Assembly: GCA_009833045.1 (NCBI GenBank)
Contig: WUUP01000001.1
Location: 923,586 to 987,585 of the forward strand
Origin: Saprospirales bacterium GYS_P2D
GTDB taxonomy: Bacteria; Bacteroidota; Bacteroidia; Chitinophagales; Saprospiraceae
Length of the DNA stretch: 64,000 nucleotides
Direction: 5' to 3'
Made by a program: the position numbers and the translations under genes. Positions 13,679 through 58,637 of this stretch are shown here, in pieces. Numbering within the stretch: the stretch's first letter is position 1; every line of letters begins with the position of its first letter. The notes under the pieces are model-generated. The model was not told the DNA's origin. It saw nothing but the letters and a program-made list of their open reading frames with translations, and did not search any database.

Positions 13679-13776
13679 CGAACGAATTTTATGAATGTAT
13701 GATCAAACATTGGATTAAAAAATGGTGGAACCGGCCAGATCATACGCATACCCATAAATCAAAGAAATCTAAATCG

Positions 13777-15276
13777 ATGTCAGGACTTCAGGTTTTCAAT
13801 AGCTTAAAGAAGGAAAAAGAAGTATTCGAACCGATCAACGAGGGTCTCGTCGGCATGTATGTATGTGGCCCTACTGTATATAGCGATGTCCATCTGGGCA
13901 ATATACGTACGTTCATATCATTTGATATCATCTATCGATATCTCAAATATCTCGGCTATAAGGTACGCTATGTGCGAAATATCACAGACGTAGGACACCT
14001 CGTCGGAGATCTCGATCAGGGCGAAGATAAAATCGCAGAAAGAGCAAAGCTCGAAAACCTCGAGCCTATGGAAGTCGTACAAAAATACTCGAATGGCTTT
14101 CATCAGATGATGGATACATTCAATGTGCTCCCTCCGAGCATAGAGCCTCGAGCCACCGGCCACATCATTGAGCAGATCGAGATGGTGCAGAAAATCCTCG
14201 ACAATAAACTCGCCTATGTCAAGAATGGATCTGTCTACTTTGACACGATCAAATTCAACAAAAAATATAAGTCCTACGGTCAGCTATCTGGGCGTGTGAT
14301 TGACGAGCTATTCTCGGAGACACGAGAGCTCAAAAATCAGAGCGAAAAGAAGCACCCTGCTGACTTTGCTATATGGATGAAGGCTGATGATCGCCATCTC
14401 ATGAAGTGGAACTCGCCATGGTCTGTGGGCTTCCCTGGCTGGCACCTCGAGTGCTCTGCGATGAGTACAAAGTATCTGGGAGAGAAGTTTGACATACATG
14501 GTGGAGGTAATGATCTGAAGTTTCCTCATCACGAAAATGAAGTCGCTCAAAACATGGGTGCCTGTGGATGTACTCCAGCTAACTACTGGCTACATACCAA
14601 TATGCTCCTCATGAATGGTCGCAAAATGTCAAAGAGTGATGGCAATACAATCACTCCTCTACAACTATTCACAGGAGAGAGTGAGCATATTACTAAGGGC
14701 TACAGTCCGATGGTCATCAAGTTTTTCATGCTACAGGCCCACTATAGGTCTACCATCGACCTAAGCGACGAAGCACTGAGCGCTGCGGAAAAAGGATATA
14801 AGAAAATCATGGAGGCTAATAAATTCCTCCAGTCCATCGAGCACACCGAGCCATCAGAGATCTCAGAAGTTGATGCAAAAATCACTGAAGGCATCAAGGG
14901 AGTCTTCACAGAACTCGACGATGACTTTAATACGCCAAAGACCCTTGCCCGACTATTTGAATTAGTCCCGATCATCAATAGCTATAAAGATGGTAAAGCA
15001 GAGTTCTTGCAAATCAAATCGGAGACAGTAGCCGCACTGCAAAAGTGTTTTCAAGATGTAATCTTTGACATCTTTGGCTTACAGGACGAATATGCAAGTG
15101 GTGGCAATACGCTATACGACAGTCTCGATGGTGTGATGAATCTCGTCATAGAGCTACGTCAAGAGGCACGATCTAAGAAAGATTGGGCAACAGCCGACAA
15201 AATCCGTGATACCCTCGCCAAAGAAAAAATCGTCATCAAAGACGGCAAAGAAGGGACCAGCTGGAATCTCAACTAA
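13777..15276 (+). CDS. cysS: Cysteinyl-tRNA synthetase
   Basis: 500 residues from the ATG at 13777, where the family's usual start (x-V-F-N-S-L) aligns. An in-frame ATG at 13699 would add 26 basic, His-rich residues. The class I synthetase motifs are present: HLGN (HIGH equivalent) inside CGPTVYSDVHLGN, and KMSKS in GRKMSKSDGN. Zinc ligands fit: Cys in CGPTV, Cys in WHLECSAM and the His-His-Glu of FPHHENE. It charges tRNA-Cys in the cytoplasm. An M28 peptidase follows 16 bases after the stop. Confidence 0.95.
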   Translation: MSGLQVFNSLKKEKEVFEPINEGLVGMYVCGPTVYSDVHLGNIRTFISFDIIYRYLKYLGYKVRYVRNITDVGHLVGDLDQGEDKIAERAKLENLEPMEVVQKYSNGFHQMMDTFNVLPPSIEPRATGHIIEQIEMVQKILDNKLAYVKNGSVYFDTIKFNKKYKSYGQLSGRVIDELFSETRELKNQSEKKHPADFAIWMKADDRHLMKWNSPWSVGFPGWHLECSAMSTKYLGEKFDIHGGGNDLKFPHHENEVAQNMGACGCTPANYWLHTNMLLMNGRKMSKSDGNTITPLQLFTGESEHITKGYSPMVIKFFMLQAHYRSTIDLSDEALSAAEKGYKKIMEANKFLQSIEHTEPSEISEVDAKITEGIKGVFTELDDDFNTPKTLARLFELVPIINSYKDGKAEFLQIKSETVAALQKCFQDVIFDIFGLQDEYASGGNTLYDSLDGVMNLVIELRQEARSKKDWATADKIRDTLAKEKIVIKDGKEGTSWNLN

Positions 15277-51648: not shown

Positions 51649-52311
51649 GTGGATTTTCTCACTTCATCACACCTGCTGGGTATGCTGATTTGCATACTCA
51701 GTGCTTACTTTTTATTCTCCGGTAGTTTTCGTAAAAAATCTCCACTTGGAAATCTTCTATTGAGCTTTATAGTATTACAGATTGCTACAGAGCCTCTCAT
51801 CATGTGGTTGGCCAGTCAAGGTATGAATAACATATGGGTGATGGATATTTATAACTTTAGTGAGTTCATCATCTTCATGCTCATTTTTCGATATCTGTAC
51901 TCGACCATAGATGAAAAATATGTCAAATGGATAAATTGGTTCATTATTGCTGGACTCCTTTTTATGACATTTAATCTCATTTTCATAGAGGGACCATTCG
52001 TTTGGAGTAGAATTTCAATCACTTTCACACGCATTGTGTATATAGTTTTTTCAGCTGGCTATTTCATACTTCTCATGTCAAATCGAAATGGCAATGCTAT
52101 AGCTCCCTATGAGAAATACTACATACTTTTTATAGGAGGCATCTTCGTTTATTATGCTGGAGCACTATTTTACTTTCTGATGAATAATGTAGCCTTCTTA
52201 GGCAAAGAAAATATCACTAACATTCTGAGAAACTACAATATGGCCATGTTTACTCTCCTCAGAATTACTATCTTATGGATAGCATGGCGGACACGACGAG
52301 TACAGCTATAA
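51649..52311 (+). CDS. Seven-helix membrane protein paired with a histidine kinase
   Basis: 220 residues, start GTG at 51649 just after the lipoprotein stop. Seven hydrophobic stretches (about 8-25, 33-55, 63-86, 96-115, 125-147, 158-180, 196-215) make it a 7-TM protein with a short basic tail. No known family recognised; it recalls the membrane part of 7TM sensor kinases. The gene overlaps the kinase gene by 37 bases in another frame, so the two are translated together and may form one sensor. Confidence 0.75.
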   Translation: MDFLTSSHLLGMLICILSAYFLFSGSFRKKSPLGNLLLSFIVLQIATEPLIMWLASQGMNNIWVMDIYNFSEFIIFMLIFRYLYSTIDEKYVKWINWFIIAGLLFMTFNLIFIEGPFVWSRISITFTRIVYIVFSAGYFILLMSNRNGNAIAPYEKYYILFIGGIFVYYAGALFYFLMNNVAFLGKENITNILRNYNMAMFTLLRITILWIAWRTRRVQL

Positions 52312-53090
52312 GTCAGATGACTCTCTACATCATCGTAGGTACGATGGTGATATTGGTATTGGTAGCGCTTTTTATTATGCTATTTGGCATATCCCGAAAG
52401 CGCCTGCTACAGGCAGAGACCCAGCGTCAGAAGCTCATCATCCAGCATCAGTCAGCACTCATCCAAAACAACCTCCAGACCCAAGAAGAGGAGCGCAGAC
52501 GACTCGCTGCTAACCTCCACGATGACATCGGCTCCAAGCTCAATGTGATCAAGCTTTTTGCACATCAGTTCAGAAGTAGAGACATCACTAATGATCGAAG
52601 AGAGCAGCTCGCCAGAGAGATGATGTCGACCCTCCAAAAGACCATCGATACGACTCGCAGTATATCTCATCAGCTCTATCCTCCTACTTTAGAAAATTTT
52701 GGGCTCATCGCAGCGGTCAAAGAGCTCAGCGATGATATCAATGATAGCTCATCGCTGGATCTGGACTTTCAGTATCACTATGATGAGCAGCGAGTGGATA
52801 GCGTAGACGTCGAGCTCAATCTCCTACGAGTGCTCCAGGAGTGTATCCAAAATAGTATCAAATACGGAGCCTCCCTCATCGAACTCGTGATAGAATATAA
52901 AAATAAAACCATAGATATCCGCTATGTGGATAATGGCCCTGGCTATGATCCCACTACACCAGACAATCAAAAAGGTATGGGTATCCAAAACATCCACAAT
53001 CGTATCGCACTCATCAACGCCACTATCAAAAATCTGAGCGCTATAAATCAAGGTGCCAGATATCGTATCCACTTCAATCAAAAATCATGA
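52275..53090 (+). CDS. Sensor histidine kinase (HisKA_3, NarL-type) without sensor domain
   Basis: 271 residues: one membrane helix (about 16-38), a coiled coil, the dimerisation domain with His82 in ANLHDDIGSKL and an ATPase domain with DNGPGYDP and GMGIQNIHNR. No extracellular domain exists between the start and the helix, so a partner must do the sensing, most likely the 7-TM protein it overlaps. It should phosphorylate the response regulator whose ATG overlaps its stop. A second in-frame ATG at 52284 is possible. Confidence 0.92.
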   Translation: MDSMADTTSTAISQMTLYIIVGTMVILVLVALFIMLFGISRKRLLQAETQRQKLIIQHQSALIQNNLQTQEEERRRLAANLHDDIGSKLNVIKLFAHQFRSRDITNDRREQLAREMMSTLQKTIDTTRSISHQLYPPTLENFGLIAAVKELSDDINDSSSLDLDFQYHYDEQRVDSVDVELNLLRVLQECIQNSIKYGASLIELVIEYKNKTIDIRYVDNGPGYDPTTPDNQKGMGIQNIHNRIALINATIKNLSAINQGARYRIHFNQKS

Positions 53091-53746
53091 CACCAATCAA
53101 AATTGCTCTTGCTGACGACGAAGCCCTTTTTCGCCAAGGTCTCAAACTACTCATAGACTCTATCCCTGATATAGAGGTAGTACTGGAGGCTGGCGATGGT
53201 CAGGAGCTCCTCGACCTGCTCGCCGAGTGCACTGAGCTACCTGATATCCTACTGCTCGACCTCCAGATGCCAGTGCTGGATGGTGTCAAGACTACTCAGC
53301 AGCTACACAAAAAATTTCCATCTATCGACGTGATCGTCCTATCGACACATTTCACCCGTAGCTTTATCACTAATATGATCGACATGGGTGCCTGTAGCTA
53401 TGTAGCGAAGGACACCGACCCAAAAGACTTAGCCTATACGATCCGGGAGGTCTATCGCAATGGCTTCTATTATAGCAAGCCTGTCATAGAGTTTCTCAAT
53501 AAAAAATCACTGGCTAAGAATACTAAGTCTGGATTTAGTATCAGTCTGACCGCCCGAGAGATCGATGTCCTCGAGCTCATCTGCAATCAGATGACCACTG
53601 CCGAGATCGCAGAAGCTCTCTATATCAGTCCACGTACTGTCGAAGGACATCGTAAGAATATGCTCTCCAAACTCAACTGTAAGAATACTGCTGGACTGGT
53701 CGTCTATGCTCTGGAGAATAATCTCGTACAGCTCAAACTCGAGTAA
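53087..53746 (+). CDS. LuxR/NarL-family response regulator
   Basis: 219 residues: receiver domain with Asp58 in LLLDLQMP and the acidic ADDE near the start, then a LuxR-type HTH (about 150-215) with LTAREIDVLELICNQ and SPRTVEGHRKN. It is coupled to the kinase by an ATGA overlap. Target genes are not shown by the sequence; the lipoprotein at the head of the unit is a natural candidate. Confidence 0.95.
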   Translation: MTPIKIALADDEALFRQGLKLLIDSIPDIEVVLEAGDGQELLDLLAECTELPDILLLDLQMPVLDGVKTTQQLHKKFPSIDVIVLSTHFTRSFITNMIDMGACSYVAKDTDPKDLAYTIREVYRNGFYYSKPVIEFLNKKSLAKNTKSGFSISLTAREIDVLELICNQMTTAEIAEALYISPRTVEGHRKNMLSKLNCKNTAGLVVYALENNLVQLKLE

Positions 53747-53853
53747 TAGGCTTCATAATAGATCTGATATCTGGCTGTGACATCGATATGAGCTGGGGCA
53801 AATGGTGCGATTATCTATGTTAATTCGGATATTCGCAGCCTAATTTTTATGTG

Positions 53854-56800
53854 ATGTCAAAATATCGTGAATTTAAAGGCTTAGATCTACCAGCTATAGA
53901 TGCGGAGGTATTAGAGTTTTGGAATAAAGAGGAGATATTCAAAAAGAGTATCGAGGAGCGCTCTAAGGATAATTCATTTGTATTTTATGAAGGTCCACCA
54001 TCAGCTAATGGTAAACCTGGGATCCACCACGTGATGGCACGTACGGTCAAAGATCTATTCTGCCGCTATCACACGATGAAGGGGGAGCGAGTAGAGAGAA
54101 AAGGTGGCTGGGATACTCACGGCCTACCCGTAGAGCTCAAGGTAGAAAAAGAGCTCGGCATCACTAAAGACGATATCGGCACTAAGATCAGCATCGAAGA
54201 CTACAATAAAGAATGTCGTGCTGCGGTGATGAAATTCAAAGGGATGTGGGACGATCTCACTCGCAAGATGGGCTACTGGGCCGATCTGGACAATCCTTAC
54301 ATCACATTTGAAAATGAATACATCGAGTCTGTATGGAATCTCCTGAAGAATCTATACGACCAAGACCTGATCTATAAAGGCTATACGATACAGCCGTATT
54401 CGCCAGCAGCAGGTACTGGACTGAGTAGTCACGAGCTCAATATGCCAGGTGCCTACCAAGATGTCAAAGACACCTCTGCTGTGGCACAGTTTCAGCTCAT
54501 CCGCAATGAGCAGTCAGAGTTTCTTTATGCCGAAAAAGGAGAAGGAGAAGTATACATCATAGCATGGACGACGACTCCATGGACACTCCCATCTAATACC
54601 GCACTGGCAGTAGGCAAGAAGATCGACTATGTCAAGATCAAGACCTACAATCCATACACCAAACTGCCTGTTAATTTGATATTGGCTAAAGAGCTACTGG
54701 GCAAGTGGTTTAAGCTAGAGCAGGCCGAGCTCGACTTTGATAGCTACACACCCGAGGACAAACTCATCCCATATGTCATCCTCCAAGAGTGTAAAGGTGC
54801 AGACCTCGAGGGTATCCGCTACGAGCAACTGCTACCCTATGTACAGCCAGAGGATGGTGATGCATTCAGAGTGATCACGGGAGACTTCGTGAGTACCGCT
54901 GACGGTACGGGTATCGTACATATCGCTCCATCGTTTGGTGCTGATGATATGCGTGTAGGCAAGCAAAATGGAATCGGTAGCTTGACCCTCGTGGACAAGC
55001 AAGGAAAATTCGTAGATGAGGTGACGGACTTCGCTGGTAGATATGTCAAGGACTACCAAGACGAGGCTGACTATCGCAGCGTCGACATCGACATATCGAT
55101 CAAGCTCAAGGAAGAGAATAAAGCATTCAACGTACAGAAGTATCAGCACAACTATCCACACTGCTGGCGTACTGACAAGCCGATACTTTACTATCCGCTT
55201 GATAGTTGGTTTATCAAGGCATCAGACAAGCGTGAGCGCATGGTCGAGCTGAATAACACGATCAACTGGAAGCCATCTCATACAGGTGAGAAGAGATTTG
55301 GCAACTGGCTGGAGAATCTCCAAGACTGGAACCTCAGCCGTAGCCGCTACTGGGGTATCCCGCTCCCGATCTGGCGCACTGCAGGGGGAGATGCTCAGAT
55401 CTGTATTGGCTCTGTAGCTGAGCTATCTGCCGAGATCGAAAAAGCAAATAAAGCACTTGGCCTCAGCCAAAATACTCCAGAAGATCTACACAAACCTTAT
55501 ATCGATGATGTCATCCTCGTCTCTGAGGATGGTCGGGAGATGCGCCGTGAGGCAGATCTGATCGATGTATGGTTTGACTCAGGATCGATGCCATATGCGC
55601 AGTGGCACTATCCGATGGAGAACGAAGAAATCTTCAATAATAACTTCCCGGCAGACTTCATCTGTGAGGGTGTTGATCAGACGAGAGGATGGTTCTATTC
55701 GCTACATGCGATCGCCTCTATGGTCAAAGACAGCGTAGCCTACAAGAATGTAGTCTCGACAGGACTCGTACTCGACAAAAATGGCGTCAAGATGTCTAAG
55801 CGTCTTGGCAATGTGATCGATCCATTTGAGACATTAGCTAAGTATGGGGCAGATCCGACTCGCTGGTACATGATGACTAATGCGCAGCCTTGGGACAATC
55901 TCAAGTTTGACATAGCTGGTGTCGAGGAGGTCAAGCGTAAGTTCTTTGGTACACTTTATAATACCTACTCTTTCTTCTCGCTATATGCGAATATTGATGG
56001 TTTTGAGTACAAAGAAGATCGCATCCCACTATCGGAGCGTACTGAGATCGACAGATGGATCATCTCTCTACTCAATACGCTGATCCAAGAAGTGGATGCA
56101 GAATATGCTAACTACGAACCGACTAATGCAGGTCGTAAGATTCAGTCATTCGTAGAGGACCACCTGAGTAACTGGTATGTGCGCCTATGCCGTCGCCGAT
56201 TCTGGAAGGGTGACTATACACATGACAAGATAGCTGCCTATCAGACGCTCTATGAGTGTCTCAATACTGTCGCTAAGCTCATGTCACCTATAGCTCCATT
56301 CTTTGGAGACTGGCTCTATAAGAATCTCAATGAGGCTACTGGCCTCGAAGATCATGTGAGCGTGCACCTATCGCTACTCCCTGAGGTAGATGCCACCGCT
56401 ATCGACAAGGCACTCGAGCAGCGTATGGACTATGCACAGCGCATCTCCTCTCTCGTACTATCACTACGAAAGAAAGAAAAGCTACGTGTCCGTCAGCCAT
56501 TGCAAAAGGTACTATTGCCGATATTGGATGATAAGTTTCAGGAGCAGGTGGACCTCGTCAAAGATCTCATCCTCTCTGAGGTGAATATAAAGGAGATCGA
56601 GTACCTGACTGACGATGATGGATTCATCAAGAAGAAGATCAAGCCAAACTTCAAAACGCTCGGCCGTAAGCTGGGTAAAAATATGAAAGCAGCGGCCCAG
56701 CATATCAATGGTCTGGACCAAGCAGCTATCTCCGCTATCGAAAAGAACAATCAGTATACCCTCGAGATCAATGGCGAGAGCTATGAGCTCACGACGGAGG

Positions 56801-57150
56801 ACTTTGAGATCAGTGCGGATGAGATACCAGGATGGCAGGTAGCCAGTGATGGCGACATCACAGTGGCGCTCGACATCACGCTCACAGATGACCTCAAAAA
56901 TGAAGGCATCGCTCGAGAGCTCGTCAATCGTATCCAAAATATCCGTAAGTCAAGTGATTTTGATGTGACGGATCGCATCAAGGTGACCATAGAGTCTCAT
57001 GATGTGGTAGCTGCATCTCTGGCAGACTACCAAGACTATGTAGCTATGGAGGTACTCGCTGATAGCATCACGCAAGCTGCCACATCAGATGGAGAGTCAG
57101 TGGAGCTCGTAGATGGAGTATCTGTGCAGATCGCTGTAGCGAAAGCCTAA
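53854..57150 (+). CDS. ileS: Isoleucyl-tRNA synthetase, eukaryote-like class (IleS2) with GxHH motif
   Basis: 1098 residues from ATG 53854 (a GTG directly before it at 53851 would add one residue). It is longer than the 930-residue E. coli type and has the eukaryote-like C-terminal region. The KMSKR motif is normal (GVKMSKRLGN). The HIGH signature, expected as HxGH, reads GIHH at residues 56-59 in NGKPGIHHVMAR. This swapped GxHH form is known from some IleS2 enzymes that are extremely insensitive to mupirocin. The editing domain (WTTTPWTLPSNTALAV) is intact. It stands alone. Confidence 0.96.
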   Translation: MSKYREFKGLDLPAIDAEVLEFWNKEEIFKKSIEERSKDNSFVFYEGPPSANGKPGIHHVMARTVKDLFCRYHTMKGERVERKGGWDTHGLPVELKVEKELGITKDDIGTKISIEDYNKECRAAVMKFKGMWDDLTRKMGYWADLDNPYITFENEYIESVWNLLKNLYDQDLIYKGYTIQPYSPAAGTGLSSHELNMPGAYQDVKDTSAVAQFQLIRNEQSEFLYAEKGEGEVYIIAWTTTPWTLPSNTALAVGKKIDYVKIKTYNPYTKLPVNLILAKELLGKWFKLEQAELDFDSYTPEDKLIPYVILQECKGADLEGIRYEQLLPYVQPEDGDAFRVITGDFVSTADGTGIVHIAPSFGADDMRVGKQNGIGSLTLVDKQGKFVDEVTDFAGRYVKDYQDEADYRSVDIDISIKLKEENKAFNVQKYQHNYPHCWRTDKPILYYPLDSWFIKASDKRERMVELNNTINWKPSHTGEKRFGNWLENLQDWNLSRSRYWGIPLPIWRTAGGDAQICIGSVAELSAEIEKANKALGLSQNTPEDLHKPYIDDVILVSEDGREMRREADLIDVWFDSGSMPYAQWHYPMENEEIFNNNFPADFICEGVDQTRGWFYSLHAIASMVKDSVAYKNVVSTGLVLDKNGVKMSKRLGNVIDPFETLAKYGADPTRWYMMTNAQPWDNLKFDIAGVEEVKRKFFGTLYNTYSFFSLYANIDGFEYKEDRIPLSERTEIDRWIISLLNTLIQEVDAEYANYEPTNAGRKIQSFVEDHLSNWYVRLCRRRFWKGDYTHDKIAAYQTLYECLNTVAKLMSPIAPFFGDWLYKNLNEATGLEDHVSVHLSLLPEVDATAIDKALEQRMDYAQRISSLVLSLRKKEKLRVRQPLQKVLLPILDDKFQEQVDLVKDLILSEVNIKEIEYLTDDDGFIKKKIKPNFKTLGRKLGKNMKAAAQHINGLDQAAISAIEKNNQYTLEINGESYELTTEDFEISADEIPGWQVASDGDITVALDITLTDDLKNEGIARELVNRIQNIRKSSDFDVTDRIKVTIESHDVVAASLADYQDYVAMEVLADSITQAATSDGESVELVDGVSVQIAVAKA

Positions 57151-57191: not shown

Positions 57192-58637
57192 CTAAAACTG
57201 ACCTAAAAAGTCGGACTGAGCCTGCTGTCTACGGACCTGCATCTCATCATACCAAGGCAGATTCTTATAGTAGGTGTCTATGGCATTGGCCTTATCCTCT
57301 TCACCCAGTGAGTAGAGGATAGTCTGATAGTTATCAAAATATTTGATGTCATAAGGATAGTATTCACAGGCAGCTTTGGCCCATTTTTCGGCCTTGCGCC
57401 AGTAGAGCTCCTCCTCATAAAATGCGAAGAAGTCACTGCTAATATCAAATAACTGATTGGCTATGTTTTCACTGATATTATATACCTGATCGATGCTATC
57501 GAGATAGGGTGTCTGAGATTGAGCGATGAGCTGGTCTGTCGCTCCAGTCACTCCGAGCACATTAGCTTCTTGCTGTGCCTCTACCTCGAGCAGTACACCT
57601 CGGCGACGACGATCTTCTTGACGGACTTTTTCTATAGGAGCGGCGAGTAGATACTTAGTCACCATATACTCGGCCTGAGTAGCATAGTGATGGAGATCAT
57701 TGCGACGATAGTACTTGAGATAAAATCGATCAATGTCCTTCTCATAGATATCGCCGAGCATCGAGTGGATACCTACGGCCTCCTCAAAATCTAAGAAACT
57801 CCCACTCTTAATACTGGCCTGCATCCTGCGATCCATGAGCGTCTTCATATCATTGCGCCACTTGATCTTCTTACGACCGATACGATCATTGATCACCAGA
57901 CTTGGTAAAAATCCTCCAATCATCGGGGCAATATGGTGCAATGTCTCCTTGTCAAATAAGGCCATCTGATCCATGGTCAGCTCGAGTGTCTCATCTGATA
58001 TAGGACTACTCTCCATGAGATATCTTTTGGCGAAAGCCACTTTATTCTCAAAAGGAAAACCTTTAGCTCGGACTAAGATGTCTTCTATCTCTGTGAGAGA
58101 ATATCTATCAGCATGATGTATATCTATCTGATCGAGAAAATCACGATTGTCCCAATAGCTCTTGAGATCCATCGCCTGATCAAGCAACTCCTGCGTAGAG
58201 AGCGCTCCTATCTGATTGACTAATACACTGCCATCCGTATCTATGAAATAAAGATTTGGGAAAGCCTTAGCGCCATATTGGCGGGCAAAATCTACTCCTT
58301 CTTTTTCGGCATTGATCTTATAGGAGATGAATGAATCATTAAAATATCCAGCCAGCTTAGCATCAGTAAATACATCTCGGTCCATCATCTTGCAGGGACC
58401 ACACCAGTCTGTATAGACATCGACAAAAATAATCTTCTGTTCAGTCTGTGCTCGCTGCAGGATATCCGACCAAGCCACATGCTGTACGAAGTCCACCTGC
58501 TGGGCCTGTAGACTCATCGTACTGAGCCACCATACGAGGCAAGTCGTCGATAGAAGAAATATTTTAGAAGAAAAGACCGTCCTGAATACCACTATATCTT
58601 TATTTTTCAAGCTGGGCGCACTCTTTAACGCTACCAA
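57192..58637 (-). CDS. Secreted thioredoxin-fold protein with long helical C-terminus
   Basis: Up to 481 residues; the start is uncertain because the longest reading begins with TTG at 58637, with another TTG nine codons on and a GTG at codon 16, and no ATG precedes the signal helix (about 22-45). WCGPC stands at residues 78-82 and the cis-proline in KAFPNLY. The remaining 330 residues are helical like those of the two proteins at the left end of the window, so all three form a family. Its substrate is unknown. Confidence 0.8.
   Translation of the reverse strand: MVALKSAPSLKNKDIVVFRTVFSSKIFLLSTTCLVWWLSTMSLQAQQVDFVQHVAWSDILQRAQTEQKIIFVDVYTDWCGPCKMMDRDVFTDAKLAGYFNDSFISYKINAEKEGVDFARQYGAKAFPNLYFIDTDGSVLVNQIGALSTQELLDQAMDLKSYWDNRDFLDQIDIHHADRYSLTEIEDILVRAKGFPFENKVAFAKRYLMESSPISDETLELTMDQMALFDKETLHHIAPMIGGFLPSLVINDRIGRKKIKWRNDMKTLMDRRMQASIKSGSFLDFEEAVGIHSMLGDIYEKDIDRFYLKYYRRNDLHHYATQAEYMVTKYLLAAPIEKVRQEDRRRRGVLLEVEAQQEANVLGVTGATDQLIAQSQTPYLDSIDQVYNISENIANQLFDISSDFFAFYEEELYWRKAEKWAKAACEYYPYDIKYFDNYQTILYSLGEEDKANAIDTYYKNLPWYDEMQVRRQQAQSDFLGQF

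Follow-up and report, generated by a model that had tools for sequence, protein, structure and literature searches.

A type 2 isoleucyl-tRNA synthetase with a GIHH signature motif in a Saprospirales bacterium, and its predicted insensitivity to mupirocin

In the 64,000-nucleotide stretch of the Saprospirales bacterium GYS_P2D genome analysed here (the window), the ileS gene encodes Gly-Ile-His-His at the place where class I synthetases have HxGH. An earlier note on this DNA had proposed that the organism should consequently be highly tolerant to mupirocin. The locus raises the question of whether such an enzyme serves as the housekeeping isoleucyl-tRNA synthetase (IleRS) of the cell, and what the swap of the first and third signature positions implies for its inhibition by mupirocin.

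The ileS gene and its active-site residues

Counted from the ATG at 53854, the ileS product has 1098 amino acids, the length given in the earlier note, and the frame closes with a TAA stop at 57148-57150. A GTG at 53851, one codon 5' of the ATG in the same open frame, is an alternative start. The NCBIfam model TIGR00392 (ileS) matches the protein far above its cut-off of 621.4 bits (Table 1), which places it in the ileS family, and Pfam searches identified the class I catalytic (PF00133), anticodon-binding (PF08264) and C-terminal DUF5915 (PF19302) domains. Reading of the codons put GIHH at exactly the coordinates and residue numbers previously assigned to it, within the sequence VFYEGPPSANGKPGIHHVMARTVKD. 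The KMSK loop is kept, as are the editing residues that we checked, namely Thr239-241, which we take to be the CP1 editing-site triad, and Asp365, presumably the conserved editing-site Asp.

Table 1. Coordinates in the window of ileS and of the residues and regions discussed in the text
Feature	Position	Strand	Evidence or remarks
ileS, type 2 isoleucyl-tRNA synthetase	53854..57150	+	TIGR00392 997.7 bits; PF00133, PF08264, PF19302; 8c8w/8c8v top solved matches
GIHH, residues 56-59, replacing HxGH	54019..54030	+	codons GGG ATC CAC CAC; GXHH in 148/148 phylum-sample sequences
Thr239-241, presumed CP1 editing site (TTTPWTLPSN)	54568..54576	+	148/148
Asp365 (GADD), presumed conserved editing-site Asp	54946..54948	+	148/148
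Leu638, aligned to mupirocin-stacking Phe of type 1 HGF motif	55765..55767	+	alignment by eye
KMSKR, residues 646-650, second class I signature	55789..55803	+	K646, M647, K649 in 148/148; S648 in 146
C-terminal DUF5915 region, residues 903-1097	56560..57144	+	PF19302 205.2 bits

The same residues were followed through the 148 sequences of our phylum sample (see below), the window protein included. G56, H58, H59, E605, K646, M647, K649, T239-241 and D365 were invariant. Position 57 was Ile in 107 sequences, Val in 40 and Met in one, giving GIHH, GVHH and GMHH, respectively; position 648 was Ser in 146 and Ala in 2 (KMSK versus KMAK), and position 650 was Ser in 104, Arg in 36 and Thr in 8. Position 50, equated with E. 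coli Tyr59, was Thr in 111 and Ser in 37. Position 638 was Leu in 111 sequences, as in the window protein, His in 36 and Met in one; in type 1 enzymes the residue aligned to it, the Phe of HGF, stacks on mupirocin (PMC10485003; PMC4861432).

A search with PF00133 returned further class I open reading frames (ORFs) from the genome, as expected, and three of these, read as ValS, LeuS and MetS by motif context, keep HxGH as HMGH, HVGH and HIGH. A CysS-like ORF at 13699-15276 of the window has HLGN rather than HxGH, with the usual KMSKS. Upstream of ileS, at 52275-53746, genes for a HisKA_3-type sensor kinase and a LuxR/GerE-type response regulator overlap by 4 bases and end about 107 bases 5' of ileS, with nothing seen that links them to it; on its 3' side (57192-58637) lies a convergent thioredoxin-like gene.

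A type 2 enzyme encoded by a single gene

To assign the protein to one of the two IleRS types we compared it with solved chains. The best match was 8c8w with 836.6 bits, followed by further Priestia (P.) megaterium IleRS2 entries at 830.1, 829.2 and 825.0 bits; the entry 1ile, which we take to be the Thermus (T.) thermophilus enzyme, matched query residues 8-874 with 716 bits, and the best type 1 solved entry, 8c9f, reached 321.4 bits. According to Brkic et al. 2023 (PMC10485003), 8C8W is the engineered mut-GVHH-PmIleRS2, 8C8V and 8C8U are the wild type, 8C9D is the W130Q variant and 8C9F is mut-GMHH-PmIleRS1. The HVGH entries 8c8v, 8c8u and 8c9d thus account for the scores of 825-830 bits against the window IleRS, and for both IleRS types the swapped mutant was the entry nearest to it, by a few bits. 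IleRS1 is marked by HxGH together with C-terminal zinc cysteines; the window protein has GIHH, and its whole 1098-residue translation contains no Cys past residue 850, so that the type 1 C-terminal zinc motif is absent. The earlier note had placed the protein in the eukaryote-like type 2 class, to which the scores against PmIleRS2 and PmIleRS1, the DUF5915 C-terminus and the lack of late cysteines all point. By its sequence it belongs to the type 2 IleRS enzymes of the G/AXHH form.

Among characterized enzymes, the IleRS2 of Streptomyces (S.) griseus and that of Deinococcus (D.) radiodurans, which has ALHH, are alike in being type 2 with the first and third signature positions swapped. The window protein differs from them in coming from Bacteroidota kin and in having Arg at the fifth KMSKS position; its Ser50 is Thr in 111 of the 148 phylum sequences and in the 52 others read. 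P. megaterium IleRS2 is the top solved sequence match (query residues 19-1085), its engineered GVHH version being the nearest, but the natural enzyme differs by having HVGH, a mupirocin Ki of 1.08 µM and His582 where the window IleRS has Leu638. T. thermophilus IleRS2 (1ile, 1jzs) is likewise of type 2 and differs by HVGH and a Ki of 0.20 µM; its HVGH has been read as a reversion within its clade (PMC10485003). The plasmid-encoded MupA and MupB are mupirocin-resistant IleRS enzymes, and their models give the window protein 808 and 770 bits against cut-offs of 1900 bits, which sets it well outside both families. The identity of MupA to the window protein is about 38-40% among the matches listed, and the window ileS is a sole copy, not an acquired second one.

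The genome itself (4.95 Mb, 28 contigs, 99.35% complete) contains one full-scoring ileS by both TIGR00392 and protein search. No second ileS was found in it with PF00133, TIGR00392 or the window protein as queries, all other TIGR00392 matches lying under the cut-off. TIGR00392 recovered ileS from each of 14 control genomes, among them E. coli, and would thus be expected to detect a type 1 copy. The claim that this is the only visible ileS was therefore upheld.

Distribution of the swapped motif

The nearest named relatives of the protein come from Saprospiraceae or Bacteroidetes metagenome-assembled genomes (MAGs), one at 83% identity and others at 74-78%, which points to Bacteroidota as the phylum. 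An ileS above the cut-off was present in 54 of 60 relatives, the other six giving three partial and three weaker synthetase-like matches; from these 54 genomes, the 30 loci that were read (29 relatives and the gene itself) all have GIHH. For the phylum we sampled 148 genomes, each at least 90% complete. All 148 contain an ileS above the cut-off and all 148 sequences carry GXHH, with no second ileS above the cut-off in any of them in a search that scored five candidates in each genome and listed matches above ~328 bits. GXHH is thus the rule in the phylum sample, and the swap is not special to the organism of the window.

Beyond the phylum, the window protein matched 80 loci, Bacteroidota included, of which 72 were readable; 62 of these have GXHH and 10 have HXGH, nine of the latter being in assemblies of Bacillota or clostridia and the tenth in a Thermoplasmata MAG. 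A second order, that of assembly G205, has 59 genomes with an ileS above the cut-off, and 30 of 30 loci read there have GIHH; the locus of G205 itself, titled Eubacteriaceae, was read besides those 30. As read from these loci, the swap is also common outside Bacteroidota. In a scan of 298 loci, not all of them from independent genomes, 272 showed GxHH and 13 HxGH, and no intermediate motif (HxHH or GxGH) was present; the 13 loci without a readable motif comprise 8 that lack the N-terminus and 5 that are not ileS. HPGH was observed in five assemblies of Bacillota or clostridia and in a Thermoplasmata MAG; proline is absent from the second-position residues listed in PMC10485003 (I, V, L, M and Y). 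The ileS of one relative (L167) contains an in-frame TAG, and at another locus (L245), where the motif reads GIHH, the frame is broken near the start.

We also built a quick tree of 57 chosen sequences (LG+G4), in which a single, very long ValS served as outgroup and the root is unsure. Its 27 Bacteroidota sequences form one clade (SH-aLRT 91), which argues that the motif change is old, and over the whole tree the motif state must have changed at least 2 times. In PMC10485003 the case is made for at least two acquisitions of the swap and one reversion, and because of the unsure root of our tree we leave the direction and number of origins to that study.

Predicted insensitivity to mupirocin, alternative readings and plasmid copies

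Both the GXHH motif and the resistance tied to it have been published before, and the motif itself is no discovery. Brkic et al. described 86 G/AXHH and 77 HXGH IleRS2 sequences, with no swap in IleRS1, and found by exchanging the motif that the swapped form can raise the mupirocin Ki as much as 10^3-fold (PMC10485003). Changing HxGH to the swapped form raised the Ki of TtIleRS2 from 0.20 to 35 µM and that of PmIleRS2 from 1.08 to 460 µM, and the D. radiodurans enzyme, with a Ki of 6.6 mM for its natural ALHH, fell to 8.1 µM when changed to HVGH. In the structures the nitrogen of the third His occupies the place of the first-His nitrogen, and in modelling the third His clashes with mupirocin (PMC10485003). 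The S. griseus IleRS2 has a Ki of 10 mM and is without tRNA-dependent pre-transfer editing, and across IleRS2 enzymes MIC and Ki values vary widely (PMC4861432). The statement in the earlier note that some GxHH enzymes are extremely insensitive to mupirocin accordingly finds backing in the millimolar Ki of the D. radiodurans and S. griseus enzymes, and in the shift of Ki in both directions upon motif exchange.

The sequence, type, single copy and conservation of the window IleRS are established by the results given above. The reading that best accounts for them, to which we give a probability of roughly nine in ten, is that ileS encodes the housekeeping isoleucyl-tRNA synthetase of the cell, seemingly its sole IleRS, which is of type 2 and has a non-canonical GXHH motif. 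The third-position His58 would then stand in for the absent first His in the transition state, as IleRS2 enzymes permit through the displacement of their helix alpha1 tip from the adenine. Owing to its bulk, His58 would also be expected to collide with mupirocin, and the Ki to be very high, so that the organism and, by our survey, probably the phylum should be insensitive at the level of the target. The mechanism and the Ki values were demonstrated on other enzymes and by analogy should both hold for the window IleRS, whose target-level insensitivity is predicted on the same basis. As Ki values for G/AXHH enzymes extend from 35 and 460 µM in the two engineered mutants to 6.6 and 10 mM, a millimolar Ki would be an expectation for the class and not a value for this protein. 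Amino acid activation we infer from its status as the sole ileS found, and the window IleRS is an ordinary, phylum-typical and probably functional member of the described class.

A tenable though less favoured view is that a normal housekeeping IleRS2 has kept the swap for catalysis or fidelity, mupirocin insensitivity being a by-product of an ancient change. The presence of the motif in every sequence of the phylum sample and in all 30 loci of the second order, and the single, old Bacteroidota clade, fit this view. However, the swap raised kcat/KM in no enzyme tested, and its introduction into two enzymes worsened kcat or KM by as much as 10-fold, although the kcat of natural ALHH DrIleRS2 is above that of its HVGH mutant (PMC10485003). 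The authors of that study presume antibiotic pressure; the conservation by itself is no guide to the cause. It is unlikely that the more encompassing form of this view holds in full, i.e. that the swap is fixed and phylum-defining in Bacteroidota IleRS, that the phylum is target-insensitive through its sole ileS and that this insensitivity is a by-product, but the half of it that concerns fixation and target insensitivity is supported by the survey. The high conservation of HxGH across class I synthetases (PMC10485003) could suggest that the GIHH protein is a paralogue, either degenerate or serving resistance alone, beside a different IleRS that carries the main load; this is nearly refuted by the failure to find a second ileS in the 99.35% complete genome, by a frame open over 1098 codons with KMSKR, editing residues and domains in place, and by the GXHH form being the ileS above the cut-off in each of 148 phylum genomes. 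A sequencing or assembly artefact is ruled out, since the residues recur in relatives that are 74-83% identical, and with G-X-H-H at the same place in 148 phylum-sample sequences and 30 loci of close kin the motif is no product of chance or misreading.

Turning again to the favoured reading of a housekeeping, mupirocin-insensitive IleRS2, our search of the literature for Bacteroidota with mupirocin, and for IleRS2 or the GXHH motif, showed no enzymology, kinetics, MIC or structure for a Bacteroidota IleRS among the papers listed. The main text of PMC10485003 contains no word starting with Bacteroid- or Flavobacter-, and its figure and supplements may include such sequences. The Ornithobacterium hominis genome paper has an IleRS as its mupirocin annotation (PMC10835994), the Flavobacterium spartansii genome paper reports predicted mupirocin genes (PMC5714932), Porphyromonas (P.) gingivalis cells were treated with mupirocin (PMC6994654) and mupirocin plates yielded mainly clostridia (PMC11064412). 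The flavobacterium Maribacter halichondriae is reported to withstand mupirocin at 200 units (PMC10942906), and mupirocin is predicted to raise the diversity of Bacteroidaceae on plates, with Enterobacteriaceae predicted to gain too (PMC13085705). The target need not be what lets a bacterium grow with mupirocin, given that Enterobacteriaceae are favoured although E. coli has IleRS1 (PMC10485003), and neither the M. halichondriae nor the Bacteroidaceae plate data separate target from permeability.

These results extend a described resistance mechanism to a large bacterial group in which we found no tested enzyme. If target insensitivity is true for Bacteroidota, mupirocin would be ill suited to depriving them of charged tRNA-Ile, for instance when a stringent response is to be triggered, and growth on mupirocin-selective media would be expected. 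The phylum also supplies many natural GXHH enzymes with which the fidelity cost or benefit of the swap could be tested. The residual interest of the locus lies in the apparent phylum-wide fixation of the swapped form as the only ileS seen and in its possible consequence for fidelity, which may interest specialists.

Finally, 206 plasmid records matched the window protein at E values up to 1e-30, and 142 of them are named Staphylococcus. The motif was read in three records, two from Riemerella, which have GIHH, and one from Paenibacillus, which has HIGH; the best 60 of the 206 were listed and include one Prevotella, and other Bacteroidota are present among the further 146, outside the motif reading, so that a mobile GXHH gene may exist among them. 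The Riemerella anatipestifer records (NZ_CP072187.1 and NZ_CP081932.1) are circular 'plasmids' of ~100 kb in which ileS lies amid further housekeeping genes, near lepA and, in the stretch from the second, also sufB, so that they have the look of chromosome segments, perhaps mis-assembled, or of a chromid. Where the window has the convergent thioredoxin-like gene after ileS, both Riemerella records have a TraR/DksA-type gene and next to it a signal peptidase II gene, and genes of these two kinds also lie near and downstream of ileS in the Paenibacillus record.
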